Below, piece by piece: positions 1,299 to 41,611 of a stretch of 41,611 nucleotides of DNA (position 1 is its first letter; each line of letters begins with the position of its first letter). The stretch is from Syntrophales bacterium (lineage in GTDB: Bacteria; Desulfobacterota; Syntrophia; Syntrophales; UBA4778). The notes below the pieces were generated by a model. It was not told where the DNA came from, made no database searches, and worked only from the letters and a program-made list of their open reading frames with translations. Where the stretch lies: contig JAQTPK010000024.1 of assembly GCA_028712885.1 (NCBI GenBank), positions 1 to 41,611 on the forward strand, written 5' to 3'. The position numbers were made by a program, and so were the translations under genes.

Positions 1299-1320
1299 CA
1301 GTCTCAAGTCTCAGTTACAG

Positions 1321-1710
1321 TTATAGCACTTCCAGCCCCAAAATTTTCGCCATCGGATCGAAATCCCGGTCGTCATGCAGGAGCGGGAATCGATGATGGA
1401 TACAGAACGTTCCGATCATGACATCGATTGTCTTCCGTAGCGTTACGCCCTTCTTCCGCAAAAACCTGTAATTCAGCGCGCTCTCCAGGGCCAGCGCCTG
1501 TCCAACCATCGGCATGAAGGGCAAACGCGAAAGGAGGTCCCCTGCAATCCGGAAATCCCTTTCGCTCTGAAATCCCTGCAGCACTTCGGCCAGGATCAGG
1601 TCGCCCATCAGGATCGGAGTATTACCCAATGCGGAATCGAGCCAGTCCGTCTGCGAAGTTCTCTTGCCGTTGAAGAAGTCGATCCAGACGGACGAGTCAA
1701 CGACGATCAT
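1321..1710 (-). CDS. vapC: VapC-type PIN-domain toxin ribonuclease
   Basis: The 129-residue PIN domain has the expected acidic metal-binding residues: MIVVDSSVWIDFF (D5) at the N terminus, E43 in LILAEVLQGF, D97 in TIDVMIGTFC and D116-D119 in LHDDRDFDPMA. VapC proteins are Mg-dependent RNases that often cut tRNA or rRNA. ATG at 1710 overlaps the antitoxin stop by four bases (ATGA). The stop codon lies immediately after a heptamer tract (1300-1320). All catalytic positions appear present, so the toxin is probably active. Confidence 0.88.
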   Translation of the reverse strand: MIVVDSSVWIDFFNGKRTSQTDWLDSALGNTPILMGDLILAEVLQGFQSERDFRIAGDLLSRLPFMPMVGQALALESALNYRFLRKKGVTLRKTIDVMIGTFCIHHRFPLLHDDRDFDPMAKILGLEVL

Positions 1711-1901
1711 TTGTCCAGTCTCATCTCATCGAGGCTGCCGCTCCATTTGAGTTTTCCCCGAAAGCCCTTGATTTTTTTCTGGCCTTTCACCTGTACCAGC
1801 AGTTTCAATCCCTCTTCGATGGCGTCCTTTTTTGTTTTCAAGCCGGATGCCTTGAGCGCGGATTCCATCAGTTCGTCGTCGATGACGACGTTGGTTCTCA
1901 T
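1707..1901 (-). CDS. vapB: VapB-type antitoxin
   Basis: The 64-residue protein starts MRTNVVIDDELMESALKASG, a ribbon-helix-helix DNA-binding segment of the VapB group (PF09957-like), followed by a toxin-binding tail. ATG at 1901 has GGAGG eight bases upstream. A longer in-frame start at 1940 lies within the promoter/operator and is rejected. It is the first gene of the vapBC operon. Confidence 0.85.
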   Translation of the reverse strand: MRTNVVIDDELMESALKASGLKTKKDAIEEGLKLLVQVKGQKKIKGFRGKLKWSGSLDEMRLDK

Positions 1902-1912
1902 TTCCCGCCTCC

Positions 1913-1943
1913 AATGTGTATTAATGCAATTATTATACACATT
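1913..1943 (-). promoter_or_regulatory. vapBC promoter with overlapping operator
   Basis: Inverted arms AATGTGTAT (1913-1921) and ATACACATT (1935-1943) surround a 13-base spacer. On the minus strand a perfect -10 box TATAAT (1937-1932) lies in the right arm. A weak -35 (TTTCAA, 1960-1955) is 17 bases further upstream. Transcription would start near 1925. The overlap suggests autorepression by VapBC. Confidence 0.6.
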
Positions 1944-2058
1944 ATGGGATTAGTTTGAAAGGACATTATTTTCAGCCTTAAGTCTCAAGTTAAAAGAGCC
2001 CTCGTGGGCTCGGGATGCATTTTCAAGTCCGGCAGTCGGGTCGGATTCCTCCCGGCGC

Positions 2059-2139
2059 ACAGGTCTTTTCTGCCGCTCACCCTGAGCGGGTCGAAGGGTC
2101 TCGCTCCGCTGCGAGAAGAGCGGCGACGAAAAGACCTGT
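2059..2139. repeat. Long imperfect palindrome with REP-like core
   Basis: ACAGGTCTTTTC plus TGCCGCTC (2059-2078) is matched by GAGCGGC (2118-2124), GAC and GAAAAGACCTGT (2128-2139) on the other strand. The centre holds CACCCTGAGCGGGTCGAAGG (2078-2097), a form of a dispersed repeat known from many bacterial genomes, and a small hairpin. It is probably a non-autonomous palindromic element. The rest of 1996-2214 shows no gene. Confidence 0.6.
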
Positions 2140-2214
2140 ACTCCTGATTGTTAAAATTCGAGTTAAGGCCGCGATGTTTACAGCTTATATTCTACTTTAA
2201 AATACAGCCGGTAC

Positions 2215-2997
2215 TTATGAGATGCCGACTTCTTTGCCAATTTCCTTAAACTGCTTCGGGAACTCGGGCTGGAAATTCAGATAAACCGGGATCGGGTACT
2301 GCGCGCCCACTTTCTTGCCGACCTCTGCGAGAGCGGCCGTGAGTTCACCCAGAGATCCGCCGGGAATGGAAAACACGATCTCGTCATCCTGCGTCATGGA
2401 GAACACCCGGTCCCCGGTCCCGGGAATGGAGATCCTGGGCTCGCGGTCCAGAAAAGGCGCGAGCAGGTATTCGGTACATTCAATTTTGCCCCCGAAATGG
2501 CCCGGCACCCTCTTCCCTGCCCGGTAAGCCCAGGCCTGGACGAGTCTCATCAACTGCGCCGGATTCCCGTAAAATGCGATCGTATCGGGCTCGAAAGCGG
2601 CCCGGTGCAGGGGTGCCAGCAGGACGGCTGCATACTCGTCCTTCCCCAGCTTTTTAACGACTGATACTTCATTGGCGGCGGCCTTTTCGTCTTTCGAATA
2701 CGCTCCTTCGCACAGGAGCCTTGTCATTGCGGATGCAGGATCGGCCGCGGTGCTGAAACCGAATGCCAGGGCGGCCGGCACACAGACAATATCGTCCTTC
2801 GTCAGGCCCACGGTCCAGCCGTAGATGCGGGCCATGGTCACGGCCTGGCAGAGGGCCACCTTTTTGCCGAGAGCCGCCGCCGGGCGGCGCGTCTTTTCGG
2901 GAAATTCATTCGGGCTCTTGAGAAACTTGACGGCTACTGGAAATGTCTTGAGCCTCAGATCGTTCCTGATGAATTCTGCCGCTTCCTTTTGATCCAT
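2215..2997 (-). CDS. DUF169 family protein
   Basis: The 260-residue soluble protein matches the DUF169 (COG2043) pattern: N-terminal AAEFIRNDLRLKTFPVAVKF, then ALCQAVTMARIYGWTVGLTKDDIVCVPAALAFGF with conserved cysteines, and a C-terminal IPGGSLGELTAALAEVGKK region. Family members are frequent in strict anaerobes and have no agreed biochemical role. ATG at 2997 has a GGGGG ribosome site about eight bases upstream. It is monocistronic and divergent from the fructose-bisphosphatase gene. Confidence 0.85.
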   Translation of the reverse strand: MDQKEAAEFIRNDLRLKTFPVAVKFLKSPNEFPEKTRRPAAALGKKVALCQAVTMARIYGWTVGLTKDDIVCVPAALAFGFSTAADPASAMTRLLCEGAYSKDEKAAANEVSVVKKLGKDEYAAVLLAPLHRAAFEPDTIAFYGNPAQLMRLVQAWAYRAGKRVPGHFGGKIECTEYLLAPFLDREPRISIPGTGDRVFSMTQDDEIVFSIPGGSLGELTAALAEVGKKVGAQYPIPVYLNFQPEFPKQFKEIGKEVGIS

Positions 2998-3103
2998 TTA
3001 CAACCCCCTTTCTGTTCTCTTCCATCTGTTACATACATTCACATTATCAGAAATCCCCTTGTGGAAAAAAGGAATTATTGCTATAAGATATCGTAATTTG
3101 AAA

Positions 3104-3182
3104 GGTATCAGGCGCCGGGTTTCCGGCATCTGTTCCGTCAGTTTCCTCTGAAACCTGAATCCGGATACCTGAAATCCGGAAA
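3104..3182. repeat. Heptamer inverted-pair tract upstream of fbp
   Basis: Left arm units include GGTATCA, GGCGCCG, GGTTTCC, GGCATCT, GTTCCGT and CAGTTTC (3104-3145). Right arm units are CTGAAAC, CTGAATC, CGGATAC, CTGAAAT and CCGGAAA (3148-3182). The right arm is largely complementary in theme to the left. The tract fills the divergent spacer between DUF169 and fbp. Confidence 0.65.
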
Positions 3183-3184
3183 CG

Positions 3185-3208
3185 AATATGATACCCCGGT
3201 ATCATATT
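3185..3208 (+). promoter_or_regulatory. Palindromic operator-like site before fbp
   Basis: Perfect 11-base arms AATATGATACC (3185-3195) and GGTATCATATT (3198-3208) are separated by only CC. The two-base gap argues against an RNA hairpin and for binding of a dimeric protein to DNA. It lies 26 bases before the fbp start codon. Confidence 0.6.
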
Positions 3209-3234
3209 TCCGGCGTCAAGATAAGGATTTATTC

Positions 3235-4167
3235 ATGTCGATCTCCGATGCAACCCAATGCGCAACAGATCTTAGAAGGCATATGTGGATGGCGGGGGTG
3301 GAAACCGAGCTCCGCCGTCTTATCTGGCAGATCGCCATTACCGGCAAGTACATTTCGGCCAAGATTCACGAAGCCAATCGGAAATTCGCCGGATTCCGGA
3401 ACATCTTCGGGGAAGAGCAGCTCGCCCTGGACCGGACGGCGGACGAGATACTCAAGGCGCAGCTGCAATTTTCCGGCTTTGTCCGGGAATACGCCTCGGA
3501 AGAACAGGATTCCGTCATCGTGATCGGCAAGGGAGACGAACAGTACTTCATCACGGCCGACCCGCTTGACGGCTCTTCGCTCGTGGATACCAACCTTTCC
3601 ATCGGGACGATTATCGGGATCCACAGCAGCCCCGTTCTCAACGAAGGGAGAAAAACGCTGGTCGCGGCCATGTACATCACCTACGGCCCGCTGATCACGA
3701 TGGTCTATTCGGCGGGAAAGGGGAGTCATGAGTTCGTCCTGAACCGGGAAGGAGAATACGTTCTCGCCCAGGAGAATATAGTAATGGACGACCGGGGATC
3801 CATTTACAGCCTGGGCGGGCTCAGAAAAGAATGGCTGCCGGAGCACCTCGCCTACGTGGAATTTCTTGAGAGCAGCGGGTACAAGCTGAGGTACAGCGGC
3901 GGCTTTGTCCCGGACATCAACCAGATTCTGATCAAGAAAGGCGGGATATTTTCCTACCCGGCGCTGAAGAAATCACCCTCGGGAAAGTTGAGGCTGATAT
4001 TCGAGCTGCAGCCGATGGCCTACATTCTCGAGCAGGCCGGGGGAATGGCAACGGACGGCAGCCGGGACATCCTCGACATCAAGGCAACCGACCTCGATCA
4101 TCGCAGCCCCGTTTACATCGGGAGCCGCTTTGAGATCCAGAAAGCGCGCGAATTCCTGAAAGCTTGA
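3235..4167 (+). CDS. fbp: Class I fructose-1,6-bisphosphatase
   Basis: The 310-residue FBPase hydrolyses fructose-1,6-bisphosphate to fructose-6-phosphate, the irreversible step of gluconeogenesis. The metal site is intact: Glu pair in YASEEQ (residues 89-90) and ADPLDGSS (108-115). The C-terminal substrate region has KSPSGKLRLIFELQPMAYIL and EQAGGMATDG. The length fits the family (about 330). ATG at 3235 has AAGGA about eight bases upstream. The aldolase-like gene follows after 27 bases in the same direction, so the two are probably one operon. A palindromic site lies just upstream. Confidence 0.95.
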   Translation: MSISDATQCATDLRRHMWMAGVETELRRLIWQIAITGKYISAKIHEANRKFAGFRNIFGEEQLALDRTADEILKAQLQFSGFVREYASEEQDSVIVIGKGDEQYFITADPLDGSSLVDTNLSIGTIIGIHSSPVLNEGRKTLVAAMYITYGPLITMVYSAGKGSHEFVLNREGEYVLAQENIVMDDRGSIYSLGGLRKEWLPEHLAYVEFLESSGYKLRYSGGFVPDINQILIKKGGIFSYPALKKSPSGKLRLIFELQPMAYILEQAGGMATDGSRDILDIKATDLDHRSPVYIGSRFEIQKAREFLKA

Positions 4168-4194
4168 GCAAAAATTCTGAGCGAGGTATTGCGG

Positions 4195-5637
4195 ATGATT
4201 TTCGAAAATCTCGAGCAGTTGAAGAAAGGCGTCCGCGCCGCGGTCAAAACTGAAGGCGGGCGCGTCGAAGTGGCCGACCCGGGAAAGCTGCGCGGCCGGA
4301 CGATAGACGACCTGATCCATACCGCCGTTTTCAGTCCCGATCCCGCCGCGAAAGAGGTTGCGAGGTGGATCATCCGCCGGGCGGGCGCCGCGCTGGGCAT
4401 TCACTGCGCCTCCATCCAGGGACTATACGAGGCAATGGGGAAGGAGAAGGCGGGAGGCTTTACCGTCCCCGCGGTCAACCTGAGGGGGCTTACTTACCTT
4501 TGCGCCCAGGCCGTTTTCCGGACGGTCCTGAAGGAGAAAATCGGACCGGTGATATTCGAGATCGCCCGCTCCGAAATCGGTTATACCGACCAGCGTCCCG
4601 CGGAATACGGGGCGGCCGTTACGGCGGCGGCCATCAAGACGGGGTACAGCGGCCCGCTCTTCCTGCAGGGAGACCACTTCCAGGTCAGCGGGAAGAAGTA
4701 CGCGGGCGACCCGGAAGGCGAGGTTAACGCCGTCCGCGTTCTTATCCGGGAGGCGGTGGCGGCGGGTTTTTTCAACATCGATATCGACTCATCCACCATC
4801 GTGGACCTCTCAAAACCCACCCTGCGTGAGCAGCAGCTTGCCAATTCCTCCATTGCGGCGGACCTGACGGGGATGATCCGCCGGATCGAGCCGGCGGGCG
4901 TCCGAATATCCGTCGGAGGGGAAATCGGGGAGGTCGGCAAGAAGAACAGCACCGTCGAGGATCTGCGGGCCTTCATGGAAATATATCAGGAGAAGCTCCA
5001 TAAAGAGGGCAAAGGGCTCGCCGGGATCAGCAAGATAAGCGTGCAGACCGGGACGACGCACGGCGGGGTGCCGCTTCCTGACGGACGGATCGCCGATGTG
5101 AAGCTGGATTTCCAGACCCTGGAATTGCTGTCCCGGACCGCCAGGAGCGAGTTCGGTCTGGCCGGGGCCGTCCAGCACGGCGCGTCCACTCTCCCGGATG
5201 AGGCGTTCGACCGCTTCCCGAAAACGGGGACCGCCGAGATCCACCTCGCCACGGGTTTCCAGAACATGATTTACGACAGCTCAAGCTTTCCGCACGCGCT
5301 GCGGGACAGGATCTACGCCCATATCCGCTCTAATCTCGCCGACGAAAGGGGTCCGAAAGACACGGAGGAGCAGTTCATTTACAAGACGCGAAAAAAAGGA
5401 TTCGGACCCTTCAAGAAGGATTTCTGGATGCTCCCTCCCGAATGTCTCGAAGGAATCGGGGCGGAAATGGAGAAGAAATTCCATTTCCTCTTCGGCAGGC
5501 TGAACGTGTTCGGGACGAAGGATGTGACGGACCGGTTCGTCAAGCCGGTAGATGTAGCATCGCCTCTCCCGGCCGCGCTGTCCGGCAAAGCCGGCCAACG
5601 GGAGGACATAGCGGAGGAGTACGGGGAAGGGGAATAA
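4195..5637 (+). CDS. Large class II fructose-bisphosphate aldolase-like protein
   Basis: This protein of about 480 residues has the class II aldolase zinc site: D160-H161 in LQGDHF, E243 in GGEIGE, H289 in TTHGGVP and H328 in QHGASTL. It is well above the usual 285-360 residues of FbaA-type enzymes, with an N-terminal helical extension of about 90 residues and a longer C terminus. Placement right after fbp suggests it condenses triose phosphates for gluconeogenesis, though a related ketose-bisphosphate substrate is possible. ATG 4195 is preferred over the in-frame TTG at 4189 because GCGAGG (4181-4186) is eight bases upstream of ATG but only two from TTG. Confidence 0.85.
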   Translation: MIFENLEQLKKGVRAAVKTEGGRVEVADPGKLRGRTIDDLIHTAVFSPDPAAKEVARWIIRRAGAALGIHCASIQGLYEAMGKEKAGGFTVPAVNLRGLTYLCAQAVFRTVLKEKIGPVIFEIARSEIGYTDQRPAEYGAAVTAAAIKTGYSGPLFLQGDHFQVSGKKYAGDPEGEVNAVRVLIREAVAAGFFNIDIDSSTIVDLSKPTLREQQLANSSIAADLTGMIRRIEPAGVRISVGGEIGEVGKKNSTVEDLRAFMEIYQEKLHKEGKGLAGISKISVQTGTTHGGVPLPDGRIADVKLDFQTLELLSRTARSEFGLAGAVQHGASTLPDEAFDRFPKTGTAEIHLATGFQNMIYDSSSFPHALRDRIYAHIRSNLADERGPKDTEEQFIYKTRKKGFGPFKKDFWMLPPECLEGIGAEMEKKFHFLFGRLNVFGTKDVTDRFVKPVDVASPLPAALSGKAGQREDIAEEYGEGE

Positions 5638-5643
5638 AAACCA

Positions 5644-5767
5644 GTTTCGAGTTTCTAGTCTCGAGTTTCGAGTTCCCGGTTAAGTTCGAACGCATAACAA
5701 AAGAGGACCCTGCGTGTAGGGTCTTCTTCTTTTTTAACCAGAAACTAGAAACCCGAAACTCGAAACT
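5644..5767. repeat. Heptamer inverted pair between fba-like and metG
   Basis: Left arm: GTTTCGA, GTTTCTA, GTCTCGA, GTTTCGA, GTTCCCG in exact 7-base register (5644-5678). Right arm: AGAAACT, AGAAACC, CGAAACT, CGAAACT (5740-5767). The arms are complementary in sequence. The left arm starts six bases after the aldolase stop and the right arm reaches into the metG stop codon (TAG at 5766-5768). A conventional terminator hairpin sits between them. Confidence 0.85.
5703..5735 (+). terminator. Intrinsic terminator after the fbp operon
   Basis: GACCCT (5706-5711) and AGGGTC (5718-5723) form a stem with loop GCGTGT, followed by the T-rich run TTCTTCTTTTTT. It lies inside the heptamer inverted pair. 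Confidence 0.75.
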
Positions 5768-7673: not shown

Positions 7674-7691
7674 GTTCCGCTCTTTTGGGCT

Positions 7692-10580: not shown

Positions 10581-10650
10581 TCACATCCTCCTTCAAATAC
10601 TGACTGAAAGCCAAGGCATCAAGAAAGAATTTCGATTTCCTTTTTCCCTT

Positions 10651-10664
10651 CAGCCCTCAGCCCT
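10651..10664. repeat. Short heptamer tract (2 units)
   Basis: CAGCCCT occurs twice in tandem in the nifU-ferredoxin spacer, followed by the related GCGCCTT. Confidence 0.5.
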
Positions 10665-10674
10665 GCGCCTTTGT

Positions 10675-10984: not shown

Positions 10985-11012
10985 GAACTATGAACTGTGA
11001 ACTGTGAACTAT
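10985..11012. repeat. Heptamer tract downstream of the lipoprotein gene
   Basis: Four units in exact register: GAACTAT, GAACTGT, GAACTGT, GAACTAT. The tract ends six bases from the stop codon of the minus-strand lipoprotein gene at 11018. Confidence 0.8.
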
Positions 11013-12516: not shown

Positions 12517-12532
12517 AACTGTCGCAAACTCC

Positions 12533-12568
12533 AAATCACAAATCCCAAATCCTTGGGATTTGTGATTT
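12533..12568 (-). repeat. Perfect 14-bp hairpin of heptamer units between tlyA and ispH
   Basis: AAATCACAAATCCC (12533-12546) pairs perfectly with GGGATTTGTGATTT (12555-12568) around an eight-base loop. It consists of heptamers (CAAATCA, CAAATCC, CAAATCC and complements). There is no T-run. On the mRNA it ends 17 bases before the ispH ATG, so it may affect ispH translation or mRNA stability rather than end transcription. Confidence 0.75.
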
Positions 12569-15317: not shown

Positions 15318-15353
15318 TTCCCGCCTTTCGCGCCTTTCCCGCTATTCCCGCGC
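15318..15353. repeat. 9-base tandem tract between ispA and dxs
   Basis: Four units in register: TTCCCGCCT, TTCGCGCCT, TTCCCGCTA, TTCCCGCGC. An inverted version of the same theme (GCGGGAAAG) occurs at 34833-34859. Confidence 0.75.
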
Positions 15354-18023: not shown

Positions 18024-18115
18024 GAAACCTTCCGGTTCCGGGGTCAAGAATACCGCGGATTACGGGTGAAAAATATACACATTGACGCGATCTTGCAAGG
18101 GAAATAATAGCATCA

Positions 18116-18267
18116 GGCAATAGGTAATGGGTTATGGGTTATGGACAAAGATCGCGTCGCCGGAAGCCCAAATTCCAACCCTTGTTGCAACGGACCCCAC
18201 AGGAGCTACTGACCCGATATTTCAACCCAATACCCATGGCCTATGACCCATAACCCATGACCTCAAT
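18116..18267. repeat. Heptamer inverted pair in the xseA/DHS-like spacer
   Basis: Left arm: GGCAATA, GGTAATG, GGTTATG, GGTTATG (18116-18143). Right arm: CCCAATA, CCCATGG, CCTATGA, CCCATAA, CCCATGA, CCTCAAT (18226-18267). All units are in exact 7-base register, and the two arms are reverse complements in theme, about 80 bases apart. Confidence 0.85.
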
Positions 18268-19380: not shown

Positions 19381-19403
19381 AGAACTCACCGCAGAGGAAA
19401 AAA

Positions 19404-19508
19404 CGAAGCTGAGATGCGAAGATAAGAAGTTAGGCGGCTGTTTATACTTACAGCTCAGGTTCACCTATCCTCGCAACCTCGCAACCTCGCATCTTCAATC
19501 TTCCAGCG
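19404..19508. repeat. 8-base repeat inverted pair between convergent genes
   Basis: Right arm: CCTCGCAA, CCTCGCAA, CCTCGCAT, CTTCAATC, TTCCAGCG (19469-19508). Left arm: CGAAGCTG, AGATGCGA, AGATAAGA (19404-19427), the complementary theme. The left arm follows the DHS-like stop and the right arm precedes the DUF3108 stop. Confidence 0.75.
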
Positions 19509-20347: not shown

Positions 20348-21685
20348 ATGAAAGTCAATTACCTTCTCTTCCTGTTAGCCTCCATTTTATGCCTCTGCCT
20401 GATTCCGGCGGGCTGCCGGATGCCCGGGGCCGGAAAATATATAGTTGATCAACTCGATACGGAAGAGCCCCCGATCTTCCCCGGAGGGGAATCAACTTAC
20501 GGCAAAAAAAGTCCGCCGAGCGCCATGACCTTCACCGAAGACGGAGAGTGGTCGGAAAGAACCGAAAGGCATACCAGACGGATGGAGAAAGTTACCGGAA
20601 AACGCCCGATCGCCGGGAATAAGGCAACACTGCTCATCGACGGACCGGAAACCTTCTCCGCCATGGAAGAGGCCATCGAGGGAGCAAAGGACCATATCAA
20701 CCTCGAAACCTTCATCTTCAGGGAAGACAGCCTCGGGAGGCGATTCTCCCGTCTGCTTCTCAGGAAGAGGGCTGAAGGGGTGGAGGTGAATATCATTTAC
20801 GACAGCTACGGCGCAAAGTATACGCCGCCCCGTTTTTTCGCCCGGCTCAGGGACGGCGGGATCCGGGTCGTCGAATACAACCCCGTCGATCCCATCGACC
20901 TGCTGGGAAAAGAGACGATCAACAACAGGGATCATCGCAAGATCCTCATCGTCGACGGAAAGGTGGCGTTTACCGGAGGGATTAATATCCAGCAGGACCA
21001 CTGGCGCGACACCGACATCAGAATCGAAGGCCCGGCCGTCGCCTCGCTGCAGAAGCTCTTCATCGAGACATGGAAGAGCCGAAACGGTCCCGAATTCGGC
21101 GCCGGGGACTATTTCCCTCAGCTTGAAAAGGAGGGCGAAATCCCGGTCCACGTAATCGAGGGCGCTCCCGGCCAGAAAACGCCCGAAATTTATACCGCCT
21201 ACCTTTCCGCTATTCTTAATGCGGAGAAAACAATCCATATAACGCATGCCTATCTTGTGCCGACCGACGAAATGCTGAACGCGCTTGCTCTCGCTGCGGA
21301 GAAAGGGATTGACGTCAAAATAATCGTTCCGAGCTTCAGCGATTTCTGGCTCCCCTTCTATGCAGGCCGGCATAACTATACGTTCCTGCTGAAGGCCGGA
21401 GTGAAATTGTATGAGCTGCAGGGGGCATTACTCCATTCCAAGACGGCGGTCATCGACGGGGTGTGGTCCACGATCGGATCGAGCAACCTTGACGTGCGCA
21501 GCTTCATTCACGATCTTGAAGTAAACGCCGTCATCATCGACCGGGACTTCGGAATCCGCATGGAAACGGCATTCGCGCGCGACCTGAAGTCGTCCAGGGA
21601 GATTCTCCCTTACGAGTGGGAAACGCGTCCGAGGTCCGACCGGCTGAAAGAATGGTTCGCGAGCTTTTTCAAGTACTGGCTATGA
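20348..21685 (+). CDS. Phospholipase D-family protein, cardiolipin synthase-like
   Basis: The 445-residue protein has two HKD motifs: HRKILIVDG with H196 and K198, and HSKTAVIDG with H363, each followed by the usual GG/GSSN segment. This architecture fits cardiolipin synthase (two phosphatidylglycerols or PG plus PE) or another phosphatidyltransferase. The N terminus (MKVNYLLFLLASILCLCLIPAGC) is a hydrophobic signal that may be lipidated at C23, although Pro at -3 is atypical. The classical two-membrane-segment N terminus of ClsA is absent. The stop overlaps the end of the convergent DUF4184 gene by six bases. Confidence 0.88.
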   Translation: MKVNYLLFLLASILCLCLIPAGCRMPGAGKYIVDQLDTEEPPIFPGGESTYGKKSPPSAMTFTEDGEWSERTERHTRRMEKVTGKRPIAGNKATLLIDGPETFSAMEEAIEGAKDHINLETFIFREDSLGRRFSRLLLRKRAEGVEVNIIYDSYGAKYTPPRFFARLRDGGIRVVEYNPVDPIDLLGKETINNRDHRKILIVDGKVAFTGGINIQQDHWRDTDIRIEGPAVASLQKLFIETWKSRNGPEFGAGDYFPQLEKEGEIPVHVIEGAPGQKTPEIYTAYLSAILNAEKTIHITHAYLVPTDEMLNALALAAEKGIDVKIIVPSFSDFWLPFYAGRHNYTFLLKAGVKLYELQGALLHSKTAVIDGVWSTIGSSNLDVRSFIHDLEVNAVIIDRDFGIRMETAFARDLKSSREILPYEWETRPRSDRLKEWFASFFKYWL

Positions 21686-22555
21686 CGGTTTCCAGGTTTC
21701 AGTTTCCGGTTTCCGGTTTCCGATTTCCGCTCTTCCCGTAAGATCATTTCCTGATTTCTTTACAACCTGAAACCTGGAACTCGAAATCAGGGACTGTTTT
21801 CCATGCCAGTACAGACAGTAGAGAAGAACAAAGCACAGGATGAAGGTTCCCCAGGCGAAAAGGCCCTGCACCATAAAAATGCGCAGTTCATGATACGATT
21901 CTACCAGCCCCGACTGACTCCAGGCAAACATGTATCCGAGGATCGCCGAAAGCGCCAGCGGAATCCTCAGCCAGAGGGAATTCAAATTACCGCGATAAGC
22001 CCAGGCCGCGGTCTGTCCCGTCCGTTCAGCAAAACGCAAACGCCTCCTTGCCCAGAAGAAAATGTACGCACCCCCCAGCAGCGATCCGGAATGATGAAGA
22101 ACGCGCGTGAGAGAGACGCGATCGAACCCCAGGTCGAGAACGGTACCGCCCAGAAACGGAAAATACTGCAGAGCCCAGCCGTCCTCGTGCGTAAATCCGT
22201 CCAATAAGACATGAGTCGCAGCTCCGATAAAGATCGACAGGACCAGTATTCCCAGCGGGCCGGCCGGAAACAAGCTGAATTTCCGGCCGGAACCGTTTAT
22301 CAGCTCTCCATATTCCTGCAATATGGCGGCCAGAGGCGCTCTCAGATACGACTGAAAAAGCCACACGGCCGCCAGTCCCGCCGGGATGCAATAAAGCAGC
22401 AGCCCGGGAATGGAATGGGTAAAATCCCTGAGGGGCATCAGTCCGAGGAAATAGACCAGGTCGGGGATCATGCTCCCGATGACCAGCCCCGAAAGGCGCA
22501 GTTTATAACGGGCCAGAGGGAGTACCGCGGCCGGATGGCTGAAGGTAAAAGGCAT
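21680..22555 (-). CDS. DUF4184 integral membrane protein
   Basis: The 291-residue protein starts MPFTFSHPAAVLPL, the DUF4184 signature, with several membrane segments (LVIGSMIPDLVYFLGLMPL; IPGLLLYCIPAGLAAVWLF; GPLGILVLSIFIGAATHVLL; IPLALSAILGYMFAW; LFAWGTFILCFVLLYCLYW). HP, PD, H and D residues in the first half resemble membrane metal-dependent hydrolases. The last 20 or so residues (RKPETETWKPS end) are encoded by the GGTTTCC heptamer tract and look non-native. Convergent with the cardiolipin synthase-like gene. Confidence 0.85.
   Translation of the reverse strand: MPFTFSHPAAVLPLARYKLRLSGLVIGSMIPDLVYFLGLMPLRDFTHSIPGLLLYCIPAGLAAVWLFQSYLRAPLAAILQEYGELINGSGRKFSLFPAGPLGILVLSIFIGAATHVLLDGFTHEDGWALQYFPFLGGTVLDLGFDRVSLTRVLHHSGSLLGGAYIFFWARRRLRFAERTGQTAAWAYRGNLNSLWLRIPLALSAILGYMFAWSQSGLVESYHELRIFMVQGLFAWGTFILCFVLLYCLYWHGKQSLISSSRFQVVKKSGNDLTGRAEIGNRKPETETWKPS
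21687..21791. repeat. Heptamer inverted pair inside the 3' end of the DUF4184 gene
   Basis: Left arm: GGTTTCCA, GGTTTCA, then GTTTCCG three times and ATTTCCG (21687-21729). Right arm: AACCTGA, AACCTGG, AACTCGA, AATCAGG (21764-21791). Arms are complementary in theme. Here the pair is translated as the C terminus of DUF4184 on the minus strand. Confidence 0.8.
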
Positions 22556-23342: not shown

Positions 23343-23357
23343 GTTTGTCTCAAAAAT

Positions 23358-23654
23358 TCAACAGCAAGTCCCGCATGCGGGAAGGCTCGATTGAATGGTG
23401 AAACCCGACCGCCCCTCCGCTTCGACAAAATCGATGCGGATCGGTTTGGTTCTTTCGAGCAGTTCCTTTTCCACGGCGAACGTGATCCCCTGGTCCGTGA
23501 AGATCTGATCGTCTTCCTGTGACTCGTCCAGAGCCATGCCCAGTCTGGGCCCTCCTCAGCCGGGCTGCTCTATGATTCTCACCACGAGCGGCTCCTTGTG
23601 CTTCTCCAGGAATTCCTTGATTATACTGCCTGCTTTCTCCGTTACCTGTACCAT
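23358..23654 (-). CDS. HesB/IscA-like selenoprotein (in-frame UGA = Sec)
   Basis: A 98-residue HesB/IscA-like protein, complete only if the TGA at 23558-23556 is read as selenocysteine. The sequence before it (MVQVTEKAGSIIKEFLEKHK, then VVRIIEQPG) and after it (GGPRLGMALDESQEDD, ITFAVEKELLERTKPIRIDF) forms one continuous HesB domain. Sec33 takes the place of the first conserved cluster cysteine, and the end PACGTCC supplies the others. HesB-like selenoproteins are an established family in Deltaproteobacteria. ATG at 23654 has a perfect GAGGAGGGGG ribosome site. A hairpin follows the UGA. Likely role: iron-sulfur or redox function, unproven. Confidence 0.88.
23538..23550 (-). promoter_or_regulatory. 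Candidate bacterial SECIS stem after the UGA
   Basis: On the mRNA, GCCCA and TGGGC pair around GAC, beginning about six bases after the UGA codon. Bacterial SECIS hairpins lie within about 40 bases after the UGA, so the position fits. The full fold and SelB contacts cannot be judged by eye. Confidence 0.4.
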
Positions 23655-30664: not shown

Positions 30665-30672
30665 ACCTTCCT

Positions 30673-30867
30673 AGTCCCGAGTCTCGAGTCTTGCAGGTTG
30701 TTGAAAAACTATTTCGGAGCTTAAAATCGTCATTCCCGCGAAACCTGTCCCCGAAGCATTTAATCGGGAGCGGGAATTCTGATTCTGAAGTCCGGCTTAC
30801 CTCAGCGGTTAAAATCCGGAATCAAATCGGCTCGAATAAAGAAACTCCGGACTCGGGACTCGGAACT
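30673..30867. repeat. Heptamer inverted pair between acyl-CoA dehydrogenase and VWA gene
   Basis: Left arm AGTCCCG, AGTCTCG, AGTCTTG (30673-30693). Right arm ACTCCGG, ACTCGGG, ACTCGGA (30844-30864). The left arm lies eight bases after the dehydrogenase stop and the right arm three bases before the VWA stop. Between them is GTCATTCCCGCGAAAC...GAGCGGGAATTC (30729-30779), a known type of dispersed repeat. Confidence 0.8.
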
Positions 30868-32061: not shown

Positions 32062-32074
32062 TTTTCAACTATTC

Positions 32075-32140
32075 GTAAGGAGTGAAGAGCAAGGGGTAAG
32101 GAGTTTTCCTGAGACTGCACCTTACGCTTTAAGCCTTACG
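32075..32140. repeat. Heptamer inverted pair between MoxR and VWA genes
   Basis: Left arm GTAAGGA, GTGAAGA, GCAAGGG, GTAAGGA (32075-32102). Right arm CCTTACG, CTTTAAG, CCTTACG (32120-32140), ending at the moxR stop codon (32143). Arms are complementary and only 17 bases apart, so the mRNA can fold into a hairpin within the operon. Confidence 0.8.
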
Positions 32141-32142
32141 AT

Positions 32143-34810: not shown

Positions 34811-34859
34811 GTATTGGGCATTGGGTATAGATGCGGGAAAGGCGCGAAAGGCGGGAAAC
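34811..34859. repeat. Short-period tracts (7 then 9 bases)
   Basis: GTATTGG, GCATTGG (34811-34824) is followed by GCGGGAAAG, GCGCGAAAG, GCGGGAAAC (34833-34859). The 9-base theme is the reverse complement of the tract at 15318-15353. A CCCAATGAATGC at 34973-34984 could pair with the first part. Confidence 0.65.
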
Positions 34860-35052
34860 ATTTCCACTCATTCCCGAATTTTTCCTGTCCATTCGTTTTC
34901 TTCATCGCCTGATGCATTAAACCTGAGAAACCCTGCGCTGACAGACTGAGGAGATGGATAATCTGCGCAGGACCCAATGAATGCAAATGATTTCTGGATT
35001 CAAGACTCCGCATCTGGTAGACACTTCCCATATCATGGGGGAAATTTAAAAT

Positions 35053-35745: not shown

Positions 35746-35838
35746 TCCTGTTTTCTTAAAGCGATCAGGTTTTGTGTCGATATGAATAAATAGCATTCGT
35801 AATTCCAACGGGAATTACCCGCATAACCAGGAGGGGAT

Positions 35839-36912: not shown

Positions 36913-37831
36913 CGGTAAGGTAGGCCTCGCGGGCCTCTTCGTGCAGCCCTTCCGCCAGGCAGGCCTGGGCGAGGAATACATACAGGAAAGGATTATTCGG
37001 GTCTTCCGCAATCGCCTTCCGGAAAATGAGGATGGCGTTGCCGTTCAAGCCCGTCCTGGCCAGGATATTTCCGAAACGGTTATAATAAGCCGCCTTGTGG
37101 CCCGGATCGATGCGGATCGCCTCTTCGTAAGCTTCCTCCGCCTCAGCGACCCGCCCTTCCTTCACGTAAATGTCGGCGAGGTGGCAGAAAACCAGCGGCT
37201 GGTTCCAGTTTCTCTTGATCGACTTCCTGTATGCCGCAACCGCCCGGCCGTATTCTTCAGCTTCGGCCAGGACGTGTCCGAGGCTGTTATAATAAGAAGG
37301 CGCTCCTACCGGATCTATTTCGGCAGCCTTTTCATAGGCCTTTTCCGCGCGCTCGAATTCGCCTGCCGTCGCCAGCACGTTCCCCAGGCGGCTGAAATAT
37401 TCCGGGGCATCAGGCTCCCTCGCCGCGAGCTTTTCGAAAACCCGGGCGGCATCCGAGAAGCGCTCCGCGCCGCGGTAAGCCTCTCCGAGCGTAAACAGCA
37501 GGCTCTTGTCGTGCGGCCAGACGGAAACGGCCTCTTCGCAGACTCCCGTCAACCCGGCAAAATCGGCCTTTTCCCGGAACAACCGCACCAACTCGTCAAA
37601 TGCAAACCCGGTAAAGACATCCCTGGCAAGCTCCTTTTTAAATATCACGAGCAGAAGCTCGATAGCTTCATCCGTCTTCCCGCTGTCCCGGAAGACCCAG
37701 GCCAGGGACATTTTCAGGGAATCTTCTTCCGGATGGCGCTCAATCAGCTCCCGGTAAATCGCTATCGCCTCATCGTAGCACTTCTCGCGCGCAGCCTTTT
37801 CTGCTCGGTCGTAATCGGGATTAGATTTCAT
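36887..37831 (-). CDS. TPR-repeat protein
   Basis: The 314-residue soluble protein is built of about eight to nine 34-residue TPR units, for example DEAIAIYRELIERHPEED, AEKAYEKAAEIDPVGAPSYYNSLG and AEEAYEEAIRIDPGHKAAYYNRFG. No signal peptide. TPR proteins hold other proteins together; no partner can be named. ATG 37831 has GGGAGG upstream and begins MKSNPDYDRAEKAAREKCYDEA. The earlier in-frame start at 37867 is rejected. The 3' end overlaps pilT. Confidence 0.87.
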   Translation of the reverse strand: MKSNPDYDRAEKAAREKCYDEAIAIYRELIERHPEEDSLKMSLAWVFRDSGKTDEAIELLLVIFKKELARDVFTGFAFDELVRLFREKADFAGLTGVCEEAVSVWPHDKSLLFTLGEAYRGAERFSDAARVFEKLAAREPDAPEYFSRLGNVLATAGEFERAEKAYEKAAEIDPVGAPSYYNSLGHVLAEAEEYGRAVAAYRKSIKRNWNQPLVFCHLADIYVKEGRVAEAEEAYEEAIRIDPGHKAAYYNRFGNILARTGLNGNAILIFRKAIAEDPNNPFLYVFLAQACLAEGLHEEAREAYLTATTLGADF

Positions 37832-37883
37832 ATTTCGTCCTCCCGGGTGGCTTGTCGATTGAACCAATCTGAGATATAGATTT

Positions 37884-38014
37884 GGTTTCGGGTTTCGGGT
37901 TTCGAATATATGGTCGATGTTCGGAGTCGGCGTGCTGCCCCGGGTTATAAAGACTATCGGGCCTATGCCTTGTCGAATTAAATGTTATCAACACCTGATA
38001 CCTGATACATGATA
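37884..38014. repeat. Two heptamer tracts between TPR and mutT genes
   Basis: GGTTTCG three times (37884-37904), and CCTGATA, CCTGATA, CATGATA (37994-38014). The two themes differ and are not complementary, an exception to the inverted-pair rule. This divergent spacer should also hold both promoters. Confidence 0.75.
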
Positions 38015-38043
38015 CCCAAGTCCTTATCATTTATTAAGATTTT

Positions 38044-38445
38044 ATGCAAATCGTCACTGCGGCCGTAATTGAGAAAGAAGGGAAAATCCTGATTGCCCGC
38101 CGGAGGAAGGGAGAGGCGATGGAGGGGTTCTGGGAATTCCCGGGCGGGAAACTGGAACACGAGGAAACGCCCGAGGCCTGCCTGGCCCGCGAGCTGCACG
38201 AGGAATTCGGCATCGAGGTCAGCGTAGGGGATTTTTACTGCTCCAGCCGGTTCCTTTACAGGCATGGAGAAATTGATCTGAAAGCATACCGGGCGGAAAT
38301 CGTTTCAGGCGAAATTACTCTTCAGGTCCACGATGAAATACGCTGGGTCAGGCCCGAAGAGCTCCTGAATTTCCGGCTTACTGAAGCTGACATTCCAATA
38401 GCGGAAAACCTGGCGAAAGAAGTGCAGGGTAAAAATCTCAGATAA
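38044..38445 (+). CDS. MutT/Nudix hydrolase (8-oxo-dGTP diphosphatase-like)
   Basis: The 133-residue Nudix protein has a complete Nudix box from G35 to I57 (GKLEHEE, then ACLARELHEEFGI), the pattern Gx5Ex7REUxEExGU. The N-terminal MQIVTAAVIEKEGKILIARRR and WEFPGGK match the MutT/8-oxo-dGTPase group, which removes oxidised nucleotides. The start ATG 38044 has a weak ribosome site. Convergent with the cysteine-dioxygenase-like gene. Confidence 0.9.
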   Translation: MQIVTAAVIEKEGKILIARRRKGEAMEGFWEFPGGKLEHEETPEACLARELHEEFGIEVSVGDFYCSSRFLYRHGEIDLKAYRAEIVSGEITLQVHDEIRWVRPEELLNFRLTEADIPIAENLAKEVQGKNLR

Positions 38446-38447
38446 GG

Positions 38448-38493
38448 TTCAAGTATTCAAGCGAACTGACAAGAACACTCGAATCCTTGAACC
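38448..38493. repeat. 8-base inverted pair after mutT
   Basis: TTCAAGTA, TTCAAGCG (38448-38463) and CTCGAATC, CTTGAACC (38478-38493) are complementary arms beginning three bases after the mutT stop. Fourteen bases separate them, so a hairpin is possible. Confidence 0.65.
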
Positions 38494-38505
38494 CTCTTTA
38501 TACCA

Positions 38506-38686
38506 CAAGTAAAAAGCGTGATGAGCTTGAATTTCTAACGTCATTCCGGCGGAAGCCGGAATCCAGTCCGGCTGGAAACGTTTTTGAATCGTTTCCGGAC
38601 ACCGGCTGCCGCCGGTGTGACACAAGTGTGCCGGTTAATTTAATCCAATTTTGATTTCTTTCTTTTCCCTTTTTACTTTTCACTAT
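38506..38686. repeat. AGTGAAA heptamer tract at the CDO-like stop, with REP-like element
   Basis: On the minus strand AGTGAAA, AGTAAAA, AGGGAAA and AGAAAG (38686-38661) start within the last codons and the TAA stop of the gene at 38673. A related AAGTAAA, AAGCGTG lies at 38507-38520 in opposite orientation. Between them, TCATTCCGGCGGAAGCCGGA (38541-38560) is a dispersed repeat of a type common in bacterial genomes. Seventeen bases match 7702-7718 exactly. Confidence 0.65.
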
Positions 38687-39380
38687 TGAGGACTGATTCA
38701 ATTTCTTTTTTGAGAACGGGGGAGGCGGATTTCTCCAGGGCTTTTTTCAGAACACCGTTCCCCGAGGCGCCGGAAACATCCTGAATGACCCGGATGGCGA
38801 GGACCTGCTTCAGCCGGGACGGCGGGTAGGCTTTCCAGCACGACCTGCTCTCCGGGTCGAAGAATCGGATAAAGCCCCTTTTCAGGCCTTTGCCGTAAGC
38901 GTTCGTGGTAATTCCAATTCCCGTCCCGAGGTTTTCCATCCGGTGAATCCCCTCGTCCAGGGGAAGAACGGACGTGGTCTGTCCCTTCTGGAGGGTAAGG
39001 GCAACCGTTTCTTTCAGCTCTGCATAGCTCTCCCTGCCGCCGTCGTCGAGCCGGTCGTACTTCCGCTCCAGGATCGGTCCTTTCATGGCGCCGATTATCC
39101 CCCAGGAGCCGTGGTCATGGATAATGTCCGCCTGGCGCTCCTGCCAGAGATAAGCGAGGAGAGTGAATTCGGGACACCGGTAAACGGCAATCTCGTTCGG
39201 CCAGATCGATGGTTTCTGATCCGACGCGCCCGGGTCCAGAATGATCCTTTCGAGGACTTCACCGAACCAGCCGCTATCCGCAGCCAGCCGGCCGACAAGA
39301 TCCCTTCCGCGATCCATCCATCCCTGATCGCCGCTCTTTAATATACCTTCAAATTCTTTGCAGAATTCCTGTAATGTCAT
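38673..39380 (-). CDS. Cysteine dioxygenase-like cupin protein
   Basis: The 235-residue protein has a cupin core like cysteine dioxygenase / thiol dioxygenases: H88 and H90 in IIHDHGSWGIIG and H146 in DEGIHRMEN give the three-histidine iron site. The C-terminal 60 residues (KKALEKSASPVLKKEIES) are helical. Thiol dioxygenase activity needs O2, which would be unusual in a strict anaerobe, so another reaction is possible. ATG 39380 has AGAGG upstream. The last residues (NSEK) come from the heptamer tract. Confidence 0.8.
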   Translation of the reverse strand: MTLQEFCKEFEGILKSGDQGWMDRGRDLVGRLAADSGWFGEVLERIILDPGASDQKPSIWPNEIAVYRCPEFTLLAYLWQERQADIIHDHGSWGIIGAMKGPILERKYDRLDDGGRESYAELKETVALTLQKGQTTSVLPLDEGIHRMENLGTGIGITTNAYGKGLKRGFIRFFDPESRSCWKAYPPSRLKQVLAIRVIQDVSGASGNGVLKKALEKSASPVLKKEIESVLNSEK

Positions 39381-39414
39381 ATTCGTACCTCTTTTTGAGA
39401 AATCCGCGGCTAAA

Positions 39415-39562
39415 ATTCTAAATCCTAAATTCTAATTCCTAAAAAATTCTAATATCAAAATACAAATATCAAAACAGGTCTGAGCTTGAAATCGATTTTG
39501 AATTTCGTTTTTTAGAAATTTGGATTTGTTTAGAATTTAGTATTTCGGATTTAGAATTTTTC
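39415..39562. repeat. Heptamer inverted pair between QueG-like and CDO-like genes
   Basis: Left arm ATTCTAA, ATCCTAA, ATTCTAA, TTCCTAA (39415-39442), then looser A-rich units to 39475. Right arm TTTAGAA, ATTTGGA, TTTGTTT, AGAATTT, AGTATTT, CGGATTT, AGAATTT (39511-39559). The right arm ends seven bases before the QueG-like stop codon (39566). Arms are complementary in theme. Confidence 0.8.
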
Positions 39563-39565
39563 CTT

Positions 39566-40420
39566 TTATCCGTGTTTTCGAATATGCTCCCAATCACGAT
39601 ATTCCGGGCTGTCGGGGTCGGCAGCGAGCTTCTTCTTCTCGCTCATGTATTTCCCGGACGATTTTTTTGCGCCGTAAAGAATGCGGTCTTCCCCGATCGG
39701 ACACACTTTTATGCAGACCCCGCATGGATAGCGTCTCCTCTCCGTCAGATCTTCCGCCACTCCCAGGCAGGCCAGTTTGTCGTAATCGCCGGCAATCCGA
39801 TCCTTCCGCATGGAAAGCGCGCTACCCGGACAGCAGCGGACGCACAGGCCGCATTTGATGCACAGGTCCCCCTCCTGCATCGGATCCGGCGGGATTTTAG
39901 CCTCGGTCAGGACGGACACGAGCCGCACGCGCGGACCGAACTCCGGCGTAAGCAGGCAGTGGCTCAGGCCCACCGAACCCAGGCCCGCGTACCGGGCCGC
40001 CATCACGTGGCTGAAAGCCGCGATCGGCTTATCCCGCAACGCCTTCAAAGAACCGTATCCGTCGCGGCTGAAGAAAATGGAGGCATGTCCCCGGCGATTG
40101 AGACAGCGGGTAAGGCCGTACGCCAGCCTGTCCAGCGCCCTGTTGACGGTCCGGTAAAGCTCCATGTGCTGGACCGAGGGGGTGGTCTCCACGATCGGGA
40201 GCGGCATCTGCATTCCGATTACTATCACCGTTTCGACGGGAGGCCAGACGGCGCGGGGGCGGAACTCGGGGGGGACTTCGCCGAAATCGTCCCACCGGTC
40301 GGGGGAAGCGAAGCCGACAAGATCCGCTCCCTGATCCATGCAGAAGCTGACGATATCTTTTTTCAGATCCCCGCCCGGTTTCGGCCTTTTTCCGGTCCTG
40401 GTAAAGCTTTTGGCTCTCAT
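39566..40420 (-). CDS. QueG-related 4Fe-4S protein
   Basis: The 284-residue protein belongs to the epoxyqueuosine reductase / reductive dehalogenase-related group (COG1600-like). It has two [4Fe-4S] sets: CIKCGLCVRCCPGSAL (about 187-202) and the pair in ACLGVAEDL plus CGVCIKVCPIGED (about 231-260), and FGPRVRLVSVLTEAKI before them. Real QueG is longer and has a C-terminal HEAT region, so this is more likely a cobalamin-linked or redox paralogue of unknown role. ATG 40420 overlaps the thiL stop by four bases with GAGAGG upstream. Confidence 0.8.
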   Translation of the reverse strand: MRAKSFTRTGKRPKPGGDLKKDIVSFCMDQGADLVGFASPDRWDDFGEVPPEFRPRAVWPPVETVIVIGMQMPLPIVETTPSVQHMELYRTVNRALDRLAYGLTRCLNRRGHASIFFSRDGYGSLKALRDKPIAAFSHVMAARYAGLGSVGLSHCLLTPEFGPRVRLVSVLTEAKIPPDPMQEGDLCIKCGLCVRCCPGSALSMRKDRIAGDYDKLACLGVAEDLTERRRYPCGVCIKVCPIGEDRILYGAKKSSGKYMSEKKKLAADPDSPEYRDWEHIRKHG

Positions 40421-41340
40421 CTGTTTTTCGGCCTCTCAAAGTGATCGAATCCCGCCCCCTTCATCGGGATCGGGATTCCGTCCGGACCTTGCACTTCGCT
40501 CCTTTCCGCAGCCACGAAAACGCCTATATGGGAAATGGTCGTTTCCCGGAAGGGCCATTCCCGTTCGAGTGCGGCCGCCTTCTCCGCCGGCACGGAGAAC
40601 AGCAGCTCGTAATCTTCACCGTCGGTCAGTGCTTCCCGCAGCTCAGTTTCCCCCGTCCTCCGGGGGACGGCCTCGAAGTCGATCCTCAGCGCCGTTCCGG
40701 AGGAACGGCATATGCGCCAGGCATCCAGCAGGAGGCCGTCGCTGACGTCGATCATGGCGTCCGCAAAGCGCCGCTCCGCAATCCATGCACCCTCGGAGCA
40801 TCGGGGCCGAAAAGTAAGGTGATGGCCCGTCGCCAGAGAGCGCCCGAAAGCACCCGTGGCAAAAAGGAGATCGCCCGGCCTCGCGCCTCCTCTGGTCAGG
40901 ACAATCGATTCCCGCACCTCTCCGAGAATCGTCAGGCTGGACACGGATTCACTCAATGTCGAGCTGAGATCTCCGCCGATCATGGCCACCTTGTACTCCG
41001 CAGCCAATCCGAGAATTCCCTCGAAAAATCTCCGGAGCCACTCTTCGCCGCATTCCGGGGCAAAGCCCGCCGCCACCAGGCAGTAGCGGGCCGTACCTCC
41101 CATAGCCGCAATGTCGCTCAGGTTCCTCGCCAGGAGCTTTCTTCCGACGAGTTCCGGCGCCGGGCCCCCCGGTCCCGTCCCGTAATGGCGCCCGGCGACC
41201 ACCTGATCGACGGCCGCGAGAAGGAGCAGGTCCGGGCCGATGCGGAACCCGGCGCAGTCGTCGCCGGGAGGAACGGCCAACTGCGGAGGCATTCCCGGCA
41301 GCCGGGAAAAGAGTTTTTCCAGGAAATCGTCTTCCGTCAT
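40417..41340 (-). CDS. thiL: Thiamine-monophosphate kinase
   Basis: The 307-residue ThiL has the PurM-like kinase motifs: VPPGDDCAGF (about 24-33), KLLARNLSDIAAMGG, IGGDLSSTLSESVSSLTILGE, MIDVSDGLLLDAWRI and LTDGEDYELLFSV. It phosphorylates TMP to TPP, the cofactor needed by Dxs in this same window. ATG 41340 has GGAGAAG ten bases upstream. It is transcribed ahead of the QueG-like gene. Confidence 0.94.
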   Translation of the reverse strand: MTEDDFLEKLFSRLPGMPPQLAVPPGDDCAGFRIGPDLLLLAAVDQVVAGRHYGTGPGGPAPELVGRKLLARNLSDIAAMGGTARYCLVAAGFAPECGEEWLRRFFEGILGLAAEYKVAMIGGDLSSTLSESVSSLTILGEVRESIVLTRGGARPGDLLFATGAFGRSLATGHHLTFRPRCSEGAWIAERRFADAMIDVSDGLLLDAWRICRSSGTALRIDFEAVPRRTGETELREALTDGEDYELLFSVPAEKAAALEREWPFRETTISHIGVFVAAERSEVQGPDGIPIPMKGAGFDHFERPKNR

Positions 41341-41446
41341 TAGTCAACTTCTCCTGAAATCTTTGTGAATCATATCACTTTCAAAATGCACGGGGCAAGA
41401 TAATGGTTGAAAATAAAGGGAATTTGTGCGAGTTGTCAGCCTCGAT

Positions 41447-41611
41447 AAAAAGGGGCGAAAGGGAAAAGGCCGGAGATAGATAATACAACCAAACAGGAAT
41501 CCACAACTGCGGAAAGACAACCGGCACAGGTAAATCTCCTGTTCTTTGGCCCTTCGCCCTTTGCCCTTAGCCTTTTGCCTTTTGCCTTTTGCCCTTTGCC
41601 TTTTGCCTTTT
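41447..41611. repeat. Long heptamer tract at the window end with inverted partner
   Basis: Nine units in exact register run to the last base: GCCCTTC, GCCCTTT, GCCCTTA, GCCTTTT three times, GCCCTTT, GCCTTTT twice (41549-41611). A complementary purine tract, AAAAAGG, GGCGAAA, GGGAAAA (41447-41467), lies 82 bases upstream. The tract may continue beyond the window. The rest of 41341-41611 shows no gene. Confidence 0.88.

Follow-up and report, generated by a model that had tools for sequence, protein, structure and literature searches.

The 41,611-nucleotide window analysed here is contig JAQTPK010000024.1 (C31 in our numbering) of a Syntrophales genome (GenBank assembly GCA_028712885.1; G000 below) of 97 contigs and 2.93 Mb, estimated to be 99% complete. 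In a comparison of its MetG, the closest named records were Syntrophaceae and other Syntrophales metagenome-assembled genomes (MAGs). Many spacers of this window, including the one between metG and a convergent aldolase-like open reading frame (ORF), hold runs of degenerate tandem units with a period of seven bases. The main feature of these heptamer tracts, missed in an earlier first-pass annotation of the window, is that they face each other as inverted arms on the two sides of a spacer, an arrangement with the potential to form hairpins (Table 1). With genes delimited by a simple ORF rule of our own, the window yields 32 spacer stretches (5,395 bases). The wider sample of the same genome comprises 39 stretches including the window (666 kb, 23% of the genome), with 395 spacers totalling 79,185 bases; these stretches were picked by contig number and earlier matches and are a non-random set.

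The ten tracts quoted in the first-pass annotation are all present where it placed them. Tandem Repeats Finder reports nine (rows starting at 5643, 10985, 18123, 21686, 30673, 37884, 37993, 39413 and 41544), and the tenth, GTAAGGA at 32075, is too degenerate for that program though visible by eye, and it pairs with a facing arm. At least 15 tract-bearing spacers had been claimed, and that number is reached with 12 of 31 spacers carrying rows of period 7 to 9 plus the tracts at 21686, 15318 and 32075, the first two of which fall within ORF ends under our rule. Measured against dinucleotide shuffles, lag-7 matches are in excess both in the window spacers (0.320 versus 0.256 shuffled, z 9.8) and across the own-genome sample (30.3% versus 25.6%, z 23); in the latter there is a further excess at lags 6 (z 16), 8 (z 18), 14 and 21. 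Strong tracts, defined by a score of at least 10, are concentrated at lag 7 in these 79 kb of spacers, with 58 cases, followed by lag 14 (23), lag 8 (11) and lag 9 (8); lags 4-6 and 10-13 have none, and three shuffles yielded no lag-7 tract; 12 strong lag-7 tracts lie in 570 kb of own-genome ORFs. The window alone contributes 11 at lag 7, two at lag 8, one at lag 9 and six at the harmonic lag 14, again with none at lags 4-6 or 10-13. Nor are the tracts an artefact of one assembly: they also occur in samples of eight other genomes (G001, G007, G015, G025, G031, G090, G104 and G105), in a Clostridiales MAG (L116) and in two deltaproteobacterial records (L092 and L099), many of the tract-bearing records being draft assemblies as well. 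The tracts are thus real and widespread in the genome as sampled. Since the contig ends inside its last tract, long arrays may be cut short in this assembly.

Pairing is pervasive. At 10 of 14 window places chosen by eye the two arms match with p ≤0.05 against shuffled arms. Across the own-genome sample, an inverted pair above a fixed score was found in 58 of 108 tract-bearing spacers, compared with 1.2 when the spacer was shuffled and 15.7 when another tract spacer served as the partner, so that perhaps about a quarter of the pairs are chance encounters of common words. The inverted partner in a tract's own spacer beat 90% of other tract spacers, which were not length-matched, for 67 of 152 tracts (15 expected; 34 for direct partners). 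A typical element has arms of about 27 bases, or about four units, around a centre of about 44 bases (10th to 90th percentile, 17 to 128).

The arms are inverted, belong to few word families and keep one orientation per family relative to the spacer. By base skew, 42 of the 58 pairs are G-first/C-last, nine are neutral and seven are reversed; the reversed pairs comprise four of the AAATCCC family, two with near-balanced AGT words and one real exception (L018). In a family-blind test, related pairs at different loci had the same orientation in 152 comparisons and the opposite in one (score 24), comparisons that are not mutually independent; the single opposed comparison involves the L018 pair, and at score 28 the counts are 105 and 0. 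This test covers 54 of 55 lag-7 pairs, in six groups of 18, 13, 13, 4, 4 and 2. Gene direction does not decide the polarity, as all six divergent lag-7 pairs match the orientation of their groups, although their base skew is less distinct. Over spacers of at least 90 bases, the left-right skew was +0.32 in the 60 with tracts, +0.03 in the 212 without, and -0.02 over 64 spacers from nine genomes free of lag-7 tracts.

Table 1. Tandem tracts and facing arms in the window
Feature	Positions	Strand	Setting and pairing
Period-8 tract, AGAAGGTG family	93..136	+	Reported by Tandem Repeats Finder
Left arm, AGTTTCG family	5643..5674	+	Between convergent aldolase-like ORF and metG; 26/32 aligned positions pair
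Right arm, AGTTTCG reverse complement	5736..5767	-	Terminator-like hairpin between arms (by eye)
Single GAACTGT tract	10985..11010	+	No facing partner found; p 0.97 against 10640-10670
AAATCCC-family palindrome	12532..12568	undefined	Arms touching; 15/15 aligned positions pair
Period-9 tract, TTCCCGCCT	15318..15351	-	Within over-called start of dxs ORF; no facing partner, p 0.90
Left arm, GGGTTAT family	18115..18144	+	Between divergent genes; 19/21 aligned positions pair
Right arm, ACCCATA	18225..18263	-	Faces 18115-18144
Period-8 tract, CCTCGCAA	19469..19491	-	Weak facing arm in 19385-19440, p 0.047
Left arm, CGGTTTC family	21686..21729	+	Directly follows stop of plus-strand ORF 20348-21685; crossed by minus-strand ORF as called (21680-22555); 15/16 aligned positions pair with 21755-21795
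Right arm	21763..21790	-	Faces 21686-21729; read from the sequence
Left arm, AGTCTCG family	30668..30691	+	19/22 aligned positions pair
Right arm, ACTCGGG	30844..30867	-	Faces AGTCTCG-family arm 30668-30691
Left arm, degenerate GTAAGGA	32069..32105	+	17/22 aligned positions pair, p 0.001
Right arm, CCTTACG	32118..32142	-	Faces 32069-32105
Period-9 tract, GCGGGAAAG	34833..34858	+	No facing partner, p 0.59
Three perfect GGTTTCG units	37884..37904	+	Left side of spacer; weak pairing, 16/23, p 0.006
ACCTGAT tract	37993..38016	-	Right side of spacer holding 37884-37904
CTTTTCA tract	38662..38684	-	No facing partner found, p 0.74
Left arm, AAATTCT/AAATCCT	39413..39443	+	28/32 aligned positions pair; family C-first yet constant in direction
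Right arm	39529..39559	-	Faces 39413-39443
Left arm, AAGGGGCGAAAGGG	41450..41470	+	18/21 aligned positions pair with tract 41544, p 0.02
CTTTTGCC tract	41544..41611	-	Contig ends inside tract

The first-pass annotation had argued that, as the sequence differs at each locus, nothing is being copied around. That inference fails beyond the window, because the units recur, related pairs keep their orientation (the 152 comparisons against one) and one element of genus g8 is dispersed. The 84 own-genome spacers with lag-7 tracts use 44 units, the commonest being AATGGGT, AATACCC, AAAGGGC, ACTCGGG, AACTGTG, AAATCCC, AAAAGGC and AAGGCGT, and two tracts meet with identical units in 2.6% of cases versus 0.24% after letter shuffling, a 10.9-fold excess. 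Spread of an element was seen directly in one genus only, g8, where an element of about 106 bases occurs in both G105 and G106; its centre, about 47 bases long, has four heptamers on one side and facing heptamers on the other. This heptamer-armed centre stands at nine places, two in G105 and seven among 12 G106 stretches fetched for it, and its left arm has four units in eight of the nine copies and three in the other, a step of seven. A second dispersed palindrome occurs at eight places. Our caller finds flanking heptamer tracts on both sides at four of them, three of which are one orthologous spacer in three species with differing words; of the remaining places, three have a tract-like flank by eye and one has none. 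In the window, the centre at 30692-30843 holds a dispersed element with GTCATTCCCGCGAAA that has further copies in the genome, and similar stretches lie in L043, L018, L017 and L012.

A search for the tandem pattern CCCNNNA matched 35 of 155 Syntrophales genomes (287 matches in G105, 149 in G106, 54 in G000, 49 in G104) and none of the other 120. These counts are no general measure of tract density, because the pattern favours one word family and its backward control also matches words such as CCCATTA; the control gave 52 matches against 54 in G000, 15 against 49 in G104, 16 against 0 in G079 and 1 against 287 in G105. Counted directly, lag-7 tracts per kb of sampled spacer were 1.38 in G015 (three of its six tracts being copies of one sequence), 1.26 in G105, 1.0 in G104, 0.66 in G001, 0.46 in G007, 0.34 in G031 and 0.20 in G025; G090 had two in a 1.2 kb spacer sample, and none were found in 1.1 kb of G106 or in a pooled 18.9 kb sample of nine more genomes. 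One 25-base heptamer tract of G015, GAACATAGAACTTAGAACGTAGAAC, stands three times within 3.4 kb of L214 (at 15374, 17008 and 18779). The 6,063-base record L116 has about 2.1 kb of spacer sequence with 11 lag-7 tracts, some of which stand beside hairpins, and one of its pairs is of reverse polarity. A heptamer pair of CAGATGACAGAGG type lies in the same orientation in L092 (near 11918 and 12227) and L099 (near 16217). Pairs called in other records were G-first in 35 cases, reversed in one and neutral in seven, with one place counted twice.

Orthologous spacers were compared along a 15 kb stretch of G105, which was matched to six congeners in genus g8 and one neighbouring genus, the spacer comparison being made among the congeners; the closest gene-length matches to relatives have an identity of at most about 91%. 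In g8, the G-first/C-last layout persists in convergent spacers when the word family changes. At the convergent spacer g8|g9, all seven species have the G-first/C-last order, by skew of its outer 50 bases, with a tract called in six and a terminator-like hairpin inside in five (by eye); its word is GGGTATC in G105 and G106, GGGTGTA in G104, and CAGGCNN or others elsewhere. In spacer g10|g11 our caller finds period-8 tracts in three species, and G105 has one by eye; the words are changed. Three convergent spacers in up to seven species gave 13 readable cases, a count that leaves out g10|g11 in G039 (all N) and in G025 (34 bases). Every one of the 13 is G-first/C-last, and the word family varies from species to species. 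Polarity constancy is shown for convergent spacers only, as non-convergent spacers of the genus were mixed (13 positive, 14 negative). The hairpin of spacer g6|g7, which lies beside what we take from its motif to be a sigma-54-like promoter, ranges by eye from nearly nothing in G103 to full length in G104 and G105. Arms within a spacer (mean score 10.4) and the same side between species (11.8) did not differ clearly in likeness, in a comparison that includes an all-N spacer scoring 58.

We tentatively favour the reading that heptamer-armed inverted elements spread or convert between spacers while their arms change unit by unit. The tracts would then be small inverted elements, both arms of which are degenerate heptamer minisatellites of about four units. 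Elements or arms may spread between spacers by copying or gene conversion, carrying family and orientation together; slippage would add or remove arm units in steps of seven; and exchange between arms and between loci would hold a spacer to one family even as its centre drifts or gives way to another. Some slippage or annealing step would set the step size (seven, then eight and nine, not six or less). The orientation counts speak for this reading, since birth of tracts from chance local seeds would give about half of each orientation. Several observations weigh against it. A copied element should carry its centre, so the mostly unique own-genome centres count here: for 34 of the 48 tested the sample has no further copy, and among the other 14 only three or four look truly shared, the rest being tract or short matches. 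The order of units is hardly alike between arms (17.6 versus 16.75 permuted, over 38 pairs in an alignment-chosen set). Part of the G-first layout may not stem from tracts at all, as convergent spacers without a called tract are skewed too, by +0.21 over 38 spacers in G000 and by +0.40 over 16 in g8, where tract-free spacers as a whole show a mild +0.12 over 101. No transposase is implied either: Y1_Tnp (PF01797) had no match in G000, G106 or G015 and seven in G105, and RVT_1 (PF00078) had none in the tract-bearing G001 and G105 or the pattern-rich G106. We therefore rejected a Y1 transposase or a reverse transcriptase as the engine. Arms and centres are largely uncoupled, which a simple transposon model fails to explain. 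One further and rather improbable scheme is directional synthesis or copying in steps of seven bases that puts an identical word on either side of a spacer, running outward each time; only period and polarity would be inherited and the centre left free, and the repeat class, active across several phyla, would be defined by step and direction instead of sequence.

Slippage in place, with a polymerase that prefers steps of about seven bases, chance seeds that grow and template switching that copies one arm into the other, would account for the sharp limits of the period (7 over 8 over 9, none at 4-6 or 10-13) and for the lead of lag 7 in unrelated Clostridia, mostly one MAG. It agrees with the polymerase-contact idea of Mrazek 2007, as cited in excerpts of PMC4679880 and PMC4692102, and with the growth-like series from almost no hairpin to full size in one orthologous g8 spacer (by eye). 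Chance seeds, however, predict neither recurring units nor the near-uniform orientation of related pairs, which already strain this explanation, and copying by fold-back predicts a matched unit order in the two arms that is at best weak here; we consider it unlikely. We also doubt that the pairs are mainly hairpins kept for an RNA or DNA role in which shape and polarity matter, for instance as two-way transcription insulators or paired protein sites. Such selection would fit the polarity kept through changes of family in convergent g8 spacers, the terminator-like hairpin of g8|g9 in five of seven species, the lower frequency of lag-7 tracts in divergent spacers (12 of 79, compared with 16 of the 67 convergent and 49 of the 212 co-directional ones), the position of tracts closer to 3' than to 5' gene ends (65 versus 42), and the paired sites of Geobacter metallireducens, read in the excerpt of PMC2700814 as sites of a global regulator, possibly IHF/HU. 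Yet terminator-like hairpins occupy 5 of 51 own-genome centres (3 of 12 convergent) versus 4.7% shuffled (p 0.09, at most a mild excess), and folding of the centres does not exceed that of control spacers (mean z -0.08 versus -0.55), so we rejected a terminator or hairpin as the usual centre in this genome. Arm mismatches in co-directional spacers carry no RNA-pairing signature (28 G-U, 31 A-C), which removes compensation at the level of RNA pairs as a candidate, and the six divergent lag-7 pairs are oriented like their families.

Two more specific causes are each very unlikely. G-quadruplex formation, as proposed for the GGGAATC heptamers of Xanthomonas, could draw on the GGG runs of some families and on the g8 arms, which repeat GGGNNNN. 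A canonical quadruplex motif on either strand is, however, found in only 12 of 116 lag-7 tracts, and the 29 tracts without GG or CC in their unit are equally long (median 4.1 units versus 3.9), which refutes quadruplexes as the general cause as far as a motif can tell. Loss of the hairpin nuclease SbcCD would let long inverted repeats persist and could explain their patchy distribution. In 17 genomes, SbcD scored above the cut-off in four of nine without a sampled lag-7 tract and in none of the eight others, which include G106 despite its lack of a tract in 1.1 kb (it has the 149 pattern matches). Over 155 genomes the signal is gone, and SbcD loss was rejected as the cause: the CCCNNNA pattern occurs in 7 of 39 genomes with SbcD versus 28 of 116 without (p 0.51), and at least five matches occur in 1 of 39 versus 9 of 116 (p 0.45). 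G043, which has 13 matches and whose SbcD fragment lies where a contig ends, may be tract-rich with a complete SbcCD.

Two other features of the window are unrelated to the tracts. On the minus strand, the HesB/IscA-like ORF at 23352-23654 reads through an in-frame TGA (residue 33, before GGPRLGMALDES), with a second TGA near its end, and is probably a HesB-like selenoprotein candidate. A PIN-domain protein (PF01850) is encoded at 1324-1710, also on the minus strand, and adjoins a small ORF seen by eye at about 1710-1900; the two are probably a toxin-antitoxin pair of VapBC type.

Cyanobacterial short tandemly repeated repetitive (STRR) sequences have the fixed words CCCCART, TTGGTCA and CAACAGT, and Elhai reportedly described in 2008 small dispersed repeats inside Nostoc heptamers. 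The first-pass annotation had named STRR as the nearest parallel, and a general likeness remains, as both are tandem heptamers mostly in spacers; the arms here are degenerate and often paired, and none of 116 lag-7 tracts has an STRR word as its consensus unit. The tracts do qualify as tandem heptamer simple repeats of Mrazek's class, being intergenic tandem units with lag 7 above chance. The process acting on period that had been proposed from the window is consistent with the genome-wide preference for period 7, then 8 and 9, across unlike sequences, but the idea itself was already in print: as cited in PMC4679880 and PMC4692102, Mrazek 2007 put forward polymerase contact as a hypothesis for a period-driven heptamer excess, heptamers being the commonest class in most genomes. 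These papers, and those below, are cited from excerpts. PMC4679880 also reports TAACTGA repeats.

The closest described systems share several of these features. For Xanthomonas heptamers, PMC4692102 reports inverted pairs (70 in Xcc, 75 in Xac), a strand rule, scarcity between divergent genes, and variation in length and sequence between species at the same gene pairs. The GGGAATC and GGGGA(C/T)T tracts of Xanthomonas and Nostoc treated there thus resemble ours in being intergenic, in forming inverted pairs, in being few between divergent genes and in varying at shared gene pairs, and facing pairs with the G strand outward from the genes are found here as well (42 of the 58 G-first; tract-spacer skew +0.32). 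They differ in having one word per genome instead of several families, in that the Nostoc tracts are rarely paired, and in their quadruplex motif, absent from most tracts here; neither word occurs in any of the 116 lag-7 tracts. The first-pass annotation knew of no description for this lineage, and we found none for Syntrophales in the one open-access library searched, but paired sites are in print for another deltaproteobacterium, G. metallireducens. There, PMC2700814 describes several classes, of 8 to 24 pairs each, of tandem 7-mers and 8-mers that are paired on opposite strands with a variable distance between them, and elements of four heptamers in 49 copies. Tandem 7-mers and 8-mers paired on opposite strands, with centres of 17 to 128 bases, are what we find too; the words differ (MTYCTGA, GTTGCTYN), and the excerpt reads the sites as probable regulator sites with no link to a general period-7 process. 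In the P6b loop of the Nostoc tRNA-Leu intron (PMC4476775), degenerate heptamers likewise form hairpin arms, their class is replaced repeatedly at one site and single 7-base units are gained or lost, but this is a single RNA locus inside an intron, whereas the tracts here are a genome-wide set in spacers. REPINs (PMC3116915, where small dispersed repeats are mentioned by name only) also consist of short repeats inverted about a centre that is less conserved, and are dispersed in spacers, but their REPs (repetitive extragenic palindromic sequences) do not form tandem heptamers and are associated with a RAYT transposase, and G000 has no Y1_Tnp match. The pattern is a variant of a known but unexplained kind, with heptamer excess, paired tracts and heptamer stems already on record; what is new is that each word family has a fixed orientation and that families turn over at fixed sites.

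For genome work, such tracts can end contigs and hinder the alignment of orthologous spacers. For the biology, three separate descriptions, from Xanthomonas, Geobacter and Nostoc, are joined in one testable pattern. The excess of heptamers in bacterial spacers has long been on record, with a polymerase-contact hypothesis and no tested cause in the excerpts consulted. The fixed orientation of families and their turnover at fixed sites argue against plain slippage from chance seeds, and are constraints on any mechanism.

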